Of a DNA stretch of 39,195 nucleotides, positions 8,518 to 38,975 are shown piece after piece. The notes beneath the pieces are model-generated. The model searched no databases. It was not told the DNA's origin and worked only from the letters and a program-made list of their open reading frames with translations. Origin of the DNA: Planctomycetaceae bacterium. Its GTDB lineage: Bacteria; Planctomycetota; Planctomycetia; Pirellulales; Thermoguttaceae. The DNA lies in assembly GCA_031267635.1 (NCBI GenBank), contig JAIRYX010000340.1, positions 1 through 39,195 of the forward strand. The letters are read 5' to 3'. The position numbers and the translations under genes were made by a program. Positions within the stretch are counted from its first letter, which is position 1. Each line of letters begins with the position of its first letter.

Positions 8518-8598
8518 ATGAAAAAGCTAAACAAACTGTTTGATTTTATTGAATTGCACCAAAATATATCGGGGTGGGGGGGTACGCAAAATGGCTAA
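8518..8598 (+). CDS. Short leader ORF ending through the G-rich tract (candidate 5' part of the DUF1559 gene, joined by a -1 shift)
   Basis: AAGGAA ribosome-binding-like site then [29 protein letters not shown]; related to [24 protein letters not shown] at 13381. Confidence 0.55.
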
Positions 8599-9860
8599 CA
8601 TGCTATATTTTACGTGCGATTTCCCTCTTTTTTGCCCGTGTTATTGCGTGCATTTCTGCCCGTTTGGGAAAACTGTCTTTTGTTCGACGAGCGTTTACTC
8701 TTGTCGAACTTCTCGTCGTGATTGCAATCATCGGGATTTTGATTGCGCTTCTGCTGCCCGCAGTTCAAGCCGCGCGGGAAGCGGCTCGAAGAATGCAGTG
8801 TAGCAACAATGTCAAGCAACATGCGTTGGCAGTTCACACTTATCACGACGCCTACAACGCTGTTCCCGGTTTCGGTTGGGGAATGAACCAAAATTACTCG
8901 GCGCATGTCGGATTGTTGCCGTTTGTGGAGCAGCAAGCACGTTACCAACTCATTGAATCGGTGAAAGGAGATCATAATGGTCACAGTGCCGTTGTTAATC
9001 CTGTACGAAGTAACCCCTATTCGGACTTTGACGCTTGGAAGGATCCGATCAGCGTTCATTGTTGTCCGTCCGACGGCAATACCAGAAGCGGCGCAAATAA
9101 TTATACGGCAACCAACTACTGTTTCTCATTTGGCGATTTTGAAAACGAAATGTATGGACATTGTTATTCTGCAACTGGCAGAGAGCCGAATAACACACGG
9201 ACGTTTTTCCAACAAACGCGAAGCGGCGCATGGCAGGCGCCAACTTATGCGATTCCTTTATCATTGTCTTTTGCTGCGGCATCCGACGGACTGAGTCATT
9301 CAATTCTCATTAGCGAACGTGTCAGTAAACCTAATGCTTATCAGAACGGCGGTTCGGCGACTCAATTCAATTCCATCAAGGGAGGAATTCTTGGCGGAGA
9401 AACGGCAAGTTGGTCCAATCCGCAAACATGCATGACCTATAAAGATACCGGAAACACATACAAAACAACAGCGCCGGGAACGCCGCTTGCCGGTCAGGGA
9501 ACGTATTTTGGTTATTACGGTCATTGTTTTGCAAGATTCAATACGATTTTGCCGCCGAATAGCCCAAGTTGTGCCTATGCCGGAGGAACAGGATTACACA
9601 CCGATGCATCCTATTTACCGCCGACAAGTTATCATACAGGCGGTGTAACCGCTGGTTTCGCGGACGGTTCGGTAACGTTCATTTCCGACACGATTCAAGT
9701 GACATTTGGTTCAACAGTTCCGTCTGGAAACTACGGTGGTCAATTATGGTCAGGCAACACAATGAAAAAAGCAGATTATGCGTATTCCGGTTTATCGGCG
9801 TTTGGGCTTTGGGGTGCGATTGGTTCAATCAACGGCGGCGAATCTGCATCTATGCCATGA
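8574..9860 (+). CDS. DUF1559 family protein with type IV pilin-like N-terminal methylation motif
   Basis: [46 protein letters not shown]-terminal [23 protein letters not shown]. The only early start in this frame is a GTG inside the G tract. Confidence 0.9.
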
Positions 9861-11942: not shown

Positions 11943-12798
11943 TCAATTTTTTGTTTTGGATTTATTGGCTACATTTTTTAGTTTTGTTTTGGTGTTTGGT
12001 TTTGATTTGATTTTTGCAGGGAGGATTTCAAGGATTGGGATGTTGGCAAGCGTCAGGAGTTGTTCGATTTCTTTGCGAGGCTTGGGAACATAAAGAGCCG
12101 GAATATTGCCGTCGAGTTGAACTTCAACAGTGCCTAGCGTTTCCAATAATTCAATTCCCTCCTCAGTCATGTCCAAAGTGTTCCAATATTCCCGCAATTT
12201 TTGTATTAACAAGTACGATTGCATCACGACGAAAACATATCCGCGCGTTCGATTTTTCTTTCGCACATAAAGTAGGTCGTAATTCCAATTGACCGGTCTT
12301 GCAAGTCCGAAACGTTTCTTCGACCATTGCCAAGTCCTTGTATCGCGCATGAACGGACTCCTTGTCAAGCTCGTCAACGTTCAAACTCGTCGTCAAACAA
12401 TAGCAACCATCAAGTTTTGAAATCTCCTGCAACTTCTCTTGATCCGTAACAACACGAATCGTTCGTAACTTCTCATTGGTCTCCAATTGATTCCAACTTT
12501 GAAGATTCATCCGCCGTAATTTGTCGTTACAATAGCTCAACGCCGCCGATAATTTTGCACGCAGATGTTCGTTCAAATAAAGATTGCGCTCTGAAATAAT
12601 TTTATTAAGTTTCAACATCTTTGATTGACGGTTTTTGTTGATTTCGTCGGCGCGTATCGGGTTGTGTTTCACAATATATCGTTTGCCGTTATACTTCTTG
12701 CACTTGAAATTTCGGTTTTCACTGGCGTCGTTATACCGTAAACTCCAGTTTAATCTCCATTCGTAAAATCGAAAACTCAAGTGCAATGAGTATATCAA
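11943..12798 (-). pseudogene. Frameshifted IS1634-like transposase remnant (C-terminal part)
   Basis: KLDGCYCLTTSLNVDELDKESVHARYKDLAMVEETFRTCKTGQLELRP in one frame, continuing as VRKKNRTRGYVFVVMQSYLLIQKLREYW in another. Confidence 0.75.
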
Positions 12799-13380: not shown

Positions 13381-13455
13381 ATGAACAAAAAGTGCAACAA
13401 AGTGTTTGATTTTCTTGAATTGTGTAAAACTGTATCGGGGGGGGGGGGTACATAA
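13381..13455 (+). CDS. Short leader ORF ending through a G12 tract (candidate 5' part of DUF1559 copy 2, joined by a -1 shift)
   Basis: ATG AAC AAA ... TCG GGG GGG GGG GGT ACA TAA; same register relative to DUF1559 as copy 1. Confidence 0.55.
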
Positions 13456-13481
13456 AATGGCTAATAAGCCATTTTTTACGT

Positions 13482-14591
13482 GTGACTTCCCTCTTTTTTG
13501 CCCGTATTATTGCGAGCATTTCTGTCCGATTTTGGGAAAAATCTTGTGTTCGTCGGGCGTTTACGCTGGTCGAACTTTTGGTGGTGATTGCGATCATCGG
13601 GATTTTGATTGCGCTTTTGTTGCCCGCGGTTCAAGCAGCGCGCGAAGCGGCTCGAAGAATGCAGTGTTCCAACAACATGAAACAGTGGACACTCGCGCTT
13701 CACAATTTTCACGACGCGAATAACCGCTTTCCGGCAGCACAGCAAAGACTTATAGCAACCCAGTCACGAAACAGATTTTCTGCAACTTGCGCTCTTCTTC
13801 CTTATATGGAAGAGACGGCTCGCTTTGAGGTGTTGCAAACTGTACCCAGTCCTTGGCAACCCGGTCATGCCATTCTGGGCGAGTGGGTGTCTGCTATCCT
13901 CTGTCCATCGGATACAAACCGAACCCAAACAACATTAAGTGATGGCAGAGTGCTCACTCACGGTAATATCGTCGTAAGTTACGGTGATGGCGCTCATACA
14001 TTACCTACAGATCAAACCGGCAAATCAGCGGGAGATATTTCGTCGCGCGGTTTATTTTATTGGTACACAACGAAGTCATTTCAAGACGTTGTCGATGGTA
14101 CAAGTAATACCATTGTTATCAGTGAATCGGTTTCGCCCGAAACAAACGACACGAACAAAATCAGAGGCGGAATCGCTCAAGTTGGCTTGGATGAGGGTGG
14201 TTGGTGGTGGAATCCCGCTCTTTGTAAAGGAATACAAAATGGCAGTACATTTACCGGAACTATTTATACTGTCGAAAAACGCTGCAGTCGTTTTGCAGAC
14301 GGACTTACCTTATATACGGGTTTCAATTCGATTATGCCGCCCAATAGTCCAACATGTGCATTGGATTCAAGTTTAGAAAATTCGTCCGGGCTTTATCCGC
14401 CGACAAGTTATCATTCCGGCGGCGTAAATTGCGGCAGGGTTGACGGTTCTGTTACTTTTGTAACAGACACAGTTGATACAAACGGATTGCCAAGACATCA
14501 ACAAGGAAACTATTTGAAAGGACAACCTTCACCTTTCGGCGTATGGGGCGCAATGGGAACGCCCAGCGGAGGAGAATCAAAGAGTTTATAA
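13482..14591 (+). CDS. DUF1559 family protein (copy 2)
   Basis: [68 protein letters not shown]. The frame is open back through the G12 tract but has no ATG. Confidence 0.9.
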
Positions 14592-23828: not shown

Positions 23829-25553
23829 ATGATAAAAATTGAAATTAACGGTCATGAGCACGAAGCGCAGGAAGGTGAACTTCTTCTTCACGCGATTCGG
23901 CGGGTCGGTTTGAATGTGCCGACGCTTTGCAATATGGATGGTCTGCCGCCGAGCGGCGCGTGCCGTATGTGCGTTGTGGAAGTAGAAGGTCAACGCGGTT
24001 TGACGCCAAGTTGTGCGTTTCCGGTGTTCAACGGAATGAAAGTCAATACCAATTCCAACCGCGCGGTCGAAGCCCGCAAAGCGATTATCGAATTGTTGCT
24101 GGCGAATCATCCCGACGATTGCTTTTATTGCGAGCGTAACGGCTCGTGTCAGTTGCAGGAGCTTGCCGAATCGCACGGCGTGCGGACGCGGCGGTTCATC
24201 GGTCAAAAGAACGAACATCCGCTCGACAACTCCGGCGTTTCCATTGTCCGCGATCCCGCTAAGTGCATTTTGTGCGGAAAATGCGTGCGTGCCTGCGAAG
24301 AAATTCAAGGCGTAGCGTGTATTGATTTTATCGGACGCGGCTCTTCCGCCATCATCGGTACAGCGTTCAACGAGGGATTGAACGTTTCCAGTTGCGTCAA
24401 CTGCGGACAATGCGTTGCGGTGTGTCCGACCGGCGCACTGCTCGGCAAGAGTCACATCAAACGTGTTTTGGACGCGATTGAAGATCCGAATTTGTATGTT
24501 ACGATTCAACACGCACCGTCCGTTTCGATTTCGCTTGGCGAAGAGTGCGGCGTTCCTATCGGACAAGATGTTATGGGCGTGATGCACGCGGCAATGCGGC
24601 GGCTTGGATTCGACGCAGTGTTCGATACGAGTTTCAGCGCGGACATGACAATTATGGAAGAAGCGTCGGAACTTGTGAACCGTGTAAAAACCGGCGGCGT
24701 TCTGCCGATGTTTACGAGTTGTTCGCCCGGCTGGATTAAGTATGTCGAAACATTTTTCCCGGATTTCATTCCGAACCTTTCGACTTGCAAAAGCCCGATG
24801 CAAATGCTTGCGCCGGTTGTCAAAACGTTTTATGCGCAGCGTAAAGGACTTGATCCGAAGAATATTTTCAGCGTTGCCGCGATGCCGTGTACCGCGAAAA
24901 AATTTGAAGCTGACCGCCCCGAAATGGGACGCGATGGTTATCGTGATACCGATGCGGTTTTGACGACTCGCGAACTGGGACAATTAATTCGTATGTATGG
25001 AATCAATTTGAGCGAATTAGAACCGGAACCTGCTGATACGCCGTTTGGCGTGCGAAGTACCGCTGGAAAGATTTTCGGCGCGACCGGCGGCGTGATGGAA
25101 GCGGCGATCCGTACCGCGTATTTCTTGTTGACCGGCGGCGAGTTGCCGAATCTCAAAGTGCAGGCGGTTCGCGGCTTGGACGGCGTCAAAGAAGCGCATC
25201 TCGACGTAAACGGCTTGAATGTCGGCGTTGCGGTAGTCAACGGACTTGGGAACGCCAAACGATTATTGGAAGCGATTCGTTCCGGCGAAAAAACCGATTT
25301 GCATTTCGTCGAAGTGATGACTTGTCCGGGCGGATGCGTCGGCGGCGGCGGTCAACCCTACGGCACAACCCGCGAAAAAGTGATTGCACGGGCGCAAACG
25401 TTGTATAACATCGACGCATGCGAAACATTGCGAGTTTCGCATAAGAATCCTGAACTGAAACAGTTATACGACGAATTTCTCGGCACGCCCAACGGCGAAA
25501 AAGCTCATGAATTACTGCACACGTTCTACCACGAACGCGAAGTGCTTTTGTAG
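23829..25553 (+). CDS. [FeFe] hydrogenase, HndD/HydA-type (2Fe-2S, 4Fe-4S and H-cluster domains)
   Basis: N-terminal 2Fe-2S ferredoxin domain; CILCGKCVRAC and CVNCGQCVAVCPTGAL; H-cluster motifs FTSCSPGW, AMPCTAKKFE, VMTCPGGCVGGGGQP. Confidence 0.95.
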   Translation: MIKIEINGHEHEAQEGELLLHAIRRVGLNVPTLCNMDGLPPSGACRMCVVEVEGQRGLTPSCAFPVFNGMKVNTNSNRAVEARKAIIELLLANHPDDCFYCERNGSCQLQELAESHGVRTRRFIGQKNEHPLDNSGVSIVRDPAKCILCGKCVRACEEIQGVACIDFIGRGSSAIIGTAFNEGLNVSSCVNCGQCVAVCPTGALLGKSHIKRVLDAIEDPNLYVTIQHAPSVSISLGEECGVPIGQDVMGVMHAAMRRLGFDAVFDTSFSADMTIMEEASELVNRVKTGGVLPMFTSCSPGWIKYVETFFPDFIPNLSTCKSPMQMLAPVVKTFYAQRKGLDPKNIFSVAAMPCTAKKFEADRPEMGRDGYRDTDAVLTTRELGQLIRMYGINLSELEPEPADTPFGVRSTAGKIFGATGGVMEAAIRTAYFLLTGGELPNLKVQAVRGLDGVKEAHLDVNGLNVGVAVVNGLGNAKRLLEAIRSGEKTDLHFVEVMTCPGGCVGGGGQPYGTTREKVIARAQTLYNIDACETLRVSHKNPELKQLYDEFLGTPNGEKAHELLHTFYHEREVLL

Positions 25554-33790: not shown

Positions 33791-33848
33791 TTCTGCTTAT
33801 TTCACATTTTAGGGAGGGATTGATTTCTACAATCCTGTAACGATTCAG
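33791..33848 (+). repeat. Dispersed repeat family S (copy 3)
   Basis: TTCTGCTTATTTCACATTTTAGGGAGGGATTGATTTCTACAATCCTGTAACGATTCAG. Confidence 0.8.
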
Positions 33849-33990
33849 TTTTCCAAGCCAAAGTAACCCGCACTGAGTCACTCATGTGACGCATGAGGTC
33901 TGTGTAAGTATTTTCCATTGTAATTGTCCGTATCTTTTTTTAAAAAAGACGCGTATTTTTTAAAAAATGATCCGTGTATGTTTTTAGAAG

Positions 33991-34087
33991 GTAACTATTC
34001 AGTTGCCCGAACGGCTTTATTATTGCCGCCCTTATTTATCAAGATTCCCTTAATAGCCGTGCGGATTGATTTGGCTTGGGCAACTGG
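33991..34087. repeat. Short R-family element (R7)
   Basis: GTAACTATTCAGTTGCCCGAACGG...TTGCCGCCCTTATTTATCAAG...GTGCGGATTGATTTGGCTTGGGCAACTG. Confidence 0.65.
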
Positions 34088-34149
34088 CGCCATAGTGTTC
34101 TAATTGCGTTTTCAAAAAACGAAATAATCAGGCAATTTTATCCCGAGTG

Positions 34150-37696: not shown

Positions 37697-38335
37697 CTAC
37701 TGAACGCCGATTCTTGGACAAATATCGTTGAGCAAGCAATCTTCGCAACAAGGTTTTCTTGCGGAACACGTTTCACGTCCGTGAAAAATCAGCCGATGAC
37801 TTATGCCAATCCATTCCGATTTTGGAAACAACGGCATTAAATCTCGTTCGATTTTCTCCGGCGTATTCGATTCGCTCAATCCAATCCGATGCGAAAGACG
37901 TTCCACATGTGTATCGACAACAACTCCGACTGCAATTCCGAAGCCGTTTCCCAAAACGCAGTTTGCGGTTTTTCGCCCAACACCGGGAAGTTGTATCAAT
38001 TTCTCCATATCCGCCGGAACTTCGCCATGGTATGTCTGTTCAAGAATTTCGCAAGCGGCTTTGATATTTTTCGCTTTGTTATGAAAAAATCCGGTAGTAC
38101 GAATATCATTTTCGAGTTCATTCAGATTAGCCGCCGCAAAATCCCGTGCGGAACGATATTTTTGAAACAAATCTTTGGTAACAATATTGACACGGACGTC
38201 GGTACATTGTGCCGAAAGAATTGTTGCCACAAGAATCTGTAAAGGATTTTCATAATGCAAAGCACATCGAGCTTCCGTGTATTTCTTTTTAAGCCGTCGA
38301 AGAACTTTTGCAGCATATTTTTTGTCAGTTGGCAT
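37697..38335 (-). CDS. nth: Endonuclease III
   Basis: HhH LPGVGRKTANCVLGNGFG; VDTHVERLSHRIGL; C-x6-C-x2-C-x5-C cluster CSARKPCCEDCLLNDIC. Confidence 0.96.
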   Translation of the reverse strand: MPTDKKYAAKVLRRLKKKYTEARCALHYENPLQILVATILSAQCTDVRVNIVTKDLFQKYRSARDFAAANLNELENDIRTTGFFHNKAKNIKAACEILEQTYHGEVPADMEKLIQLPGVGRKTANCVLGNGFGIAVGVVVDTHVERLSHRIGLSESNTPEKIERDLMPLFPKSEWIGISHRLIFHGRETCSARKPCCEDCLLNDICPRIGVQ

Positions 38336-38381
38336 AATTCAAAAAGCGTTGGTGAAAATGACTTTGTAAAATCTTTATGAT

Positions 38382-38779
38382 CTCATGTTACGCATGGGCT
38401 ATCGTAACTATTCAGCCGCTCCAACCCAATAAATCCGCACGGGGCGTCTGAATAATTATCCGAAAGACTTTACTATTGCAGCCCTTATTTATCAAGTTTC
38501 CCTTAGTAGCCAACAAAGCCCTCAAACGCGCGCCCTTATGCCCTGATGTTTTAGACCATGGATTGTTATCAAAACAAATGGAACGAACAATAAGGGAATA
38601 AAGACGCATGTGGGCGCGATTCGGGCTACTAAGGGAAAAGTTGATAAATAAGGGCGGCAATAATAATATGTTCCGGTAAAATTGACGGTAACTATTCCGT
38701 TGTCCGGTACGGATTTATTTGATTTGAGCGACTGAATAGTTACGTTTCCTGAATGTTAATCGCTCATGCGTAACATGAG
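38382..38779. repeat. Longest MITE-like palindromic element (R8), nested inverted repeats
   Basis: Outer CTCATGTTACGCATG / CATGCGTAACATGAG; next CGTAACTATTCAG / CTGAATAGTTACG; inner ATTGCAGCCCTTATTTATCAAGTTTCCCTTAGTAGCC / GGCTACTAAGGGAAAAGTTGATAAATAAGGGCGGCAAT. Confidence 0.85.
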
Positions 38780-38975
38780 TTATGATGTCTATTTTATCAT
38801 AGATACGCCGAGAAAAAACACCCCTGCTCTTGTATTACTGCTTGCGCAGGTGTTTCTTTATTTTTTGATGTTTGTGTTTTATGGTGGAATTTTCGGCGCT
38901 CTTGTAAGCGTGGATATTTGTTATCTCTTCGTTCGGTATGGTAAAATGCGAATAGCGTTGTTATTGCGACGGTGA
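38766..38975 (+). CDS. Small hypothetical hydrophobic protein
   Basis: MSYDVYFIIDTPRKNTPALVLLLAQVFLYFLMFVFYGGIFGALVSVDICYLFV; TM-like; start uncertain. Confidence 0.3.
   Translation: MRNMSYDVYFIIDTPRKNTPALVLLLAQVFLYFLMFVFYGGIFGALVSVDICYLFVRYGKMRIALLLRR

Follow-up and report, generated by a model that had tools for sequence, protein, structure and literature searches.

The window, by which we mean the whole stretch of 39,195 nucleotides analysed here, carries near its right end a 398-bp element without a gene, 47 bp upstream of the start codon of an nth-like gene. Coordinates are collected in Table 1. An earlier note, made from the sequence alone, had described nested inverted-repeat layers at this place; they are present at the coordinates it gave, which are also the exact extent of an element that ends in CTCATGTTACGCATGAG/CTCATGCGTAACATGAG and is flanked on both sides by TTATGAT, a perfect target duplication of 7 bp. 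The layers are an outer pair, a middle pair and two core pairs, and each middle arm is in addition a complete hairpin by itself and an independent repeat. The note had seen no ORF of note inside, and we likewise found none of at least 90 amino acids with a start codon. It had also recognised the outer end as a CTCATG palindrome and listed two similar ones: the ones at 38382 and 38763 form its two ends, while that at 33881 is the left end of a different, type-B element of the same superfamily, lying inside another repeat with CTG(C/A)TTATTTC ends (33793-34131). That the layers are the ends of two unrelated transposon families was beyond what the earlier note could see.

Table 1. Features of the element and its surroundings in the window
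Feature	Position	Strand	Remarks
nth-like gene	37697..38335	-	HhH-GPD endonuclease III family
Left target-site duplication	38375..38381	.	TTATGAT
Whole compound MITE, type A	38382..38779	.	398 bp
Left terminus of IS701-like shell	38382..38398	+	CTCATGTTACGCATGGG, 1 mismatch to consensus
Left 56-bp hairpin	38404..38459	.	looks like fused ends of an IS66-family element, degenerate
Palindromic core	38460..38687	.	common to other repeats and to DNA that adjoins an IS4-type transposase gene; of unproven origin
Right 56-bp IS66-type hairpin	38688..38743	.	inverted relative to the left one
Right subterminal sequence	38744..38762	-	GTTTCCTGAATGTTAATCG; also in other CTCATG-ended elements without an IS66 block
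Right shell terminus	38763..38779	-	exact CTCATGTTACGCATGAG
Right target-site duplication	38780..38786	.	TTATGAT
Outer inverted-repeat layer	38382-38402/38759-38779		21 nt, 90% complementary
Middle inverted-repeat layer	38403-38458/38689-38744		56-nt arms, 80% complementary
Core arms	38460-38502/38634-38676		43 nt, 81% complementary
Second core pair	38497-38530/38605-38638		34 nt, 74% complementary

Elsewhere in the window, two adjacent overlapping minus-strand frames (11943-12798) look like a broken transposase gene, a similar full frame being found at L031:164-1183. A direct repeat (8521-8820 and 13387-13686, 82%) covers the starts of two genes for prepilin-like N-methylation proteins, a multigene family present on other contigs too. 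A 574-aa protein (23829-25553) resembles iron-only hydrogenase by its cysteine motifs (e.g. TSCSPGW), as judged by eye.

The predicted fold of the element is very strong on both strands (z = -14.7 and -15.8, with no shuffled sequence equally stable), far beyond chance. The element also occupies what appears to be the 5′ leader of nth, with the gene on one side and on the other a GATAAAATAG motif that recurs upstream of nth in a congener, G001. These two observations favour a long structured RNA gene, or a maintained regulatory hairpin, whose pairing is kept by selection; the earlier note had likewise offered a source of long structured RNA as one of its readings. In an alignment of 15 type-A sequences 96.9% of cells pair, and the paired columns are mostly invariant. 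Pairs changed on both sides number 4, compared with 2.4 in column shuffles (91 of 500 shuffles reached as many); the covariation term, at +1.81, is unfavourable. Cells paired and covariation score are slightly higher than in the shuffles (24 and 19 of 500); the notes of the tool say that relatedness of the sequences gives such values in the absence of structure. No Rfam family matches the element, its copies adjoin unrelated genes and bear target duplications, and the palindrome by itself accounts for the fold. Selected RNA structure thus finds no support, and we consider an RNA gene or hairpin very unlikely.

The other suggestion of the earlier note, a non-autonomous transposon, is borne out. 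A BLAST search with the element in its own genome (a single MAG of 4.9 Mb in 518 contigs, 86% complete, from which all loci of this genome come) returned many copies, 80-92% identical along most of the element. Eighteen copies aligned with their flanks show a sharp boundary, CTCATGTTACGCATGAG at left and CTCATGCGTAACATGAG at right. The note had named a single copy, or inconsistent ends, as grounds against a transposon; the element is multicopy and its ends are uniform. The 17-bp terminus occurs 185 times genome-wide (at most two mismatches), a reversed-pattern control giving 0, and many copies of 386-453 bp, often with exact 7-bp duplications, are found. The scripted analyses covered 97 contigs or contig parts. 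Among the nearest end pairs on 80 contigs and the window, 17 of 53 are flanked by a flush and exact duplication of 7 bp; in a control that paired the left flank of one element with the right flank of another the rate was 0.3%. These contigs were picked for carrying CTCATG-type ends, so that densities are not genome averages. The target is palindromic, TTANTAA, across 187 ends. Insertions avoid genes: 5 of 20 with a duplication fall in open frames of at least 150 aa, compared with 66% of random positions.

Elements with differing interiors, from 90 to about 640 bp long, have in common a shorter, 13-bp end, CTCATGTTACGCA, and 7-bp duplications. Among them the window element is of type A; we call the common outer part the shell. 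The earlier note had proposed a search for an autonomous element with the same termini, and such IS ends, with a DDE_5 transposase, were found in the congener and in plasmids. In G001 the 13-bp end is frequent, mostly at contig breaks, and of two types: one has a non-coding leader followed by MDDRLDLYTDYLLSS..., and the other comes directly out of a reading frame ending in LEKLKFAHKLNHFALKAKIDWAASKAAWIELGKMKLA, the C-terminal coding sequence of a transposase. The central region of this transposase matches PF13546 (DDE_5). The best NCBIfam match of the assembled sequence, a fragment with two stops read as X, is NF049921 (transpos_IS701_2) at 198 bits (E 2e-58), under the 250-bit cut-off; a PDB search with the transposase gave no match. 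Matches number 18 in G001, one in G003 and two, both degenerate, in the window genome, where each of the two adjoins a CTCATG-type end (L167, L169).

Plasmid relatives (41-48% identity; two Polaromonas, one Acinetobacter and one Piscirickettsia plasmid) carry CTGATGTTACGCA, CTGACCTTACGCA or CTCATGTTACGCA/G at their ends, and their 7-bp duplications are exact (TATTTAA, TTACTAA, TTATTTA, CTCTTAA). Since these relatives show both features, ends and duplication length are common to the MITE and this transposase group. On a Cytophagales contig the transposase reads straight into the exact 17-bp end (GCTCATGCGTAACATGAG). Classical IS701 is listed with a duplication of 4 bp (ISTth8, PMC6352166), and this was not found in the IS group of the shell, which makes 7 bp; the group is therefore divergent and not to be equated with IS701 proper.

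What assembled of the IS701-like IS in the window genome, at 86% completeness and in 518 contigs, is decayed pieces and contig-broken ends, with no intact transposase among them, and the mobiliser in this genome is for that reason a presumed one. IS left ends lie at contig breaks (L058:19479, L091:14511). Because they are almost letter for letter the end that precedes the transposase start in another planctomycete MAG, Gsp477_bin102 (L236), the autonomous IS probably exists in the window genome, unassembled.

Two other candidates were rejected. Type E elements (CTCATGTTACGCATAGC...) had been suggested as the autonomous IS by their position at contig breaks; near-identical copies occur at L137, L139, L143, L144 and other contig ends. 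They have no gene, their interior is a tandem GGTTATTGGCTTCAATAATTC repeat, and their flanks do not match as duplications. An IS4-type transposase, P0001 (PF01609; NF033592 at 103 bits, under the cut-off), lies near core-like DNA; it has its own boundary, CAGCAGTTTCAAGTTAA, which differs, and the CTCATG ends do not belong to it.

The middle layer has a history of its own. Matches to the element break at its positions 22/361 far more than at the outer ends, and copies of GTAACTATTCAG... lie mostly outside any CTCATG shell. In 1.07 Mb there are 508 of the 12-mer ends of the middle unit (at most two mismatches), including 55 pairs spaced 50-59 bp without a directly adjoining shell terminus. A search of the window genome for IS66 (PF03050) gave seven matches, and in two of them (L198 and L199) the transposase C-terminus runs directly into AAACCAAATAA(A/G)TCC...CGACTGAATAGTTAC, the middle arm of the window element, closing with CTGAATAGTTAC. 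For this reason the 56-bp unit seems to be what remains of an IS66-family element after deletion of all but its two ends. Related elements with these ends include five with exactly flush 8-bp repeats (e.g. L036:4208-4298, L032:9981-10160); most solo hairpins are without a duplication. No 8-bp duplication is present at the junctions of the IS66 block inside the window element (GGGCTATC versus GTTTCCTG), so the block could have been captured by recombination, simple insertion not being demonstrated.

DNA that adjoins an IS4-type transposase gene is similar to the innermost core. P0001 may be related to this core; that the core is an end of this IS is unproven. Genes or pieces of IS4-type transposase (PF01609) lie at L039:2333-3628, L075:16917-17549 and L045:1-310, and the DNA downstream resembles the core.

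We conclude that the element is very probably a compound, or nested, MITE. The shell, with its 17-bp termini and 7-bp duplication at TTANTAA-like sites, would be a substrate in trans for the DDE_5 transposase of an IS701-like (NF049921-type) IS with like ends, which would recognise and mobilise it. Within it, two 56-bp hairpins, each apparently the fused ends of an IS66-family element, stand in inverted orientation around the palindromic core. The composite would have arisen on one or more occasions, after which transposition of the outer shell would have multiplied it in one piece. Type-A copies have common junctions, CTATC|GTAAC and GTTAC|GTTTCC, with a separate 7-bp duplication around each copy; the composite has therefore moved whole, by its outer ends. 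As to the order of assembly, other shell elements enclose a different interior between the same subterminal sequences, which suggests that the IS66-type block took the place of that interior by capture. The element is best read as passive, non-autonomous mobile DNA.

An alternative is a chain of independent MITE insertions at this one locus, in place of a unit that moves whole. The middle unit does occur alone, and other repeats are inserted in a nested manner elsewhere: at L082:12674-13182 a short inverted-repeat element flanked by TA sits in the left hairpin of a type-A element, and at L058:673-915 a AGACCTTTTCTCTAAC...GTTAGAGAAAAGGTCT inverted-repeat element sits in a CTCATG element. More than 12 copies, however, have the same two junctions at different loci, each inside its own 7-bp duplication, and a chain of separate insertions is accordingly highly improbable. 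It is more improbable still that the copies form a REP/BIME-like array of extragenic palindromes moved by a RAYT (HUH) transposase. Such an array would explain the high copy number, the inverted pairs of palindromic units and the extragenic bias, but not the target duplications of fixed length (7 bp with the shell and, in some solo elements, 8 bp) nor the DDE-type transposases that adjoin the same ends.

Across 60 relatives, the exact-type 17-bp end (at most one mismatch) was found 143 times in the window genome, once in one congener and otherwise not at all, and candidate places for the interior number 893 in the window genome and not more than 23 elsewhere. Among GTDB contigs, the exact 17-mer occurs in 37 stretches, mostly of Planctomycetaceae MAGs; the others are from Treponema, Spirochaetaceae, Cytophagales, Runella and further groups. 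The Treponema and Spirochaetaceae MAGs with the exact end (L207, L215, L217) are from one sample series (Ncb351), and these ends are a possible sign of IS transfer between gut bacteria. An exact 37-mer scan of the GTDB contigs, a set that may lack near relatives of the window, gave no match. In Gsp477_bin102 (L212) there is a CTCATG element of 421 bp whose core is similar and which is flanked by an exact duplication, TTATTAA.

MITEs as a kind are already known; the new part is the compound build from IS701-like and IS66 ends. The NF049921/PF13546 IS701-like elements of plasmids (such as Polaromonas naphthalenivorans pPNAP01, Acinetobacter schindleri, Piscirickettsia salmonis) are like the window element in their terminal CT(C/G)ATGTTACGCA and their 7-bp, mostly TTANTAA-like duplication; the window element differs in having no transposase, a length of 398 bp and an unrelated palindromic interior. 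With the IS66 family (PF03050) and its minimal derivatives it has in common the middle hairpin, the DNA that follows the IS66 transposase C-terminus, and some related elements have 8-bp duplications; in the window, however, the hairpin is cargo in the shell of another family, in two inverted copies and without the 8-bp junction duplication. MITEAba12 (PMC6382973) is likewise short and gene-less, with the ends and duplication length of an autonomous IS and AT-rich targets, but it is a 111-114 bp derivative of ISAba12 with 9-bp duplications, whereas the window element is compound and nearly palindromic throughout. TIMEs, the Tn3-derived miniature elements (PMC4133298), are also non-autonomous and generate mosaic mobile units, with Tn3 ends in place of IS701-like and IS66 ends. 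REP, BIME and REPIN repeats (PMC3116915, PMC2817692) are also high-copy extragenic palindromes, often in inverted pairs; the window element differs by its DDE-type ends and target duplications.

At the nth locus, the gene of G001 is 90% identical and has the GATAAAATAG motif at a similar distance upstream, without the element. BLAST gave no alignment upstream of nth, and the idea that the G001 region is the empty site by orthology is suggestive only. From its position, the insertion may possibly affect nth.

The repeat family with CTG(C/A)TTATTTC ends, seen at 33793-34131 of the window, has further members at L056:5631-6187, L066:8021-8465 and L071:6875-7066. Three copies have exact 8-bp duplications, and several members hold the same hairpin-and-core interior as the window element. 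Tentatively, one palindromic interior, of IS66 mini-ends and core, might circulate among shells of different transposon families, at least CTCATG (7-bp) and CTG(C/A)TTATTTC (8-bp), and the same cargo would then be amplified by one unrelated transposase after another. Capture, or exchange of shells, may favour long palindromes as substrates. We regard this as a conjecture, less probable than not.

The element ties an orphan palindrome, through its ends and duplication length, to a transposase group, one that makes 7-bp duplications at TTANTAA where 4 bp are listed for classical IS701. It presents a bacterial MITE in which two IS families are nested and have spread together as one composite, rather than the internal deletion of one IS. 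With this family and several more interleaved, the window genome is a good subject for the study of how palindromic repeats form and of the reasons for which assemblies of such genomes break.
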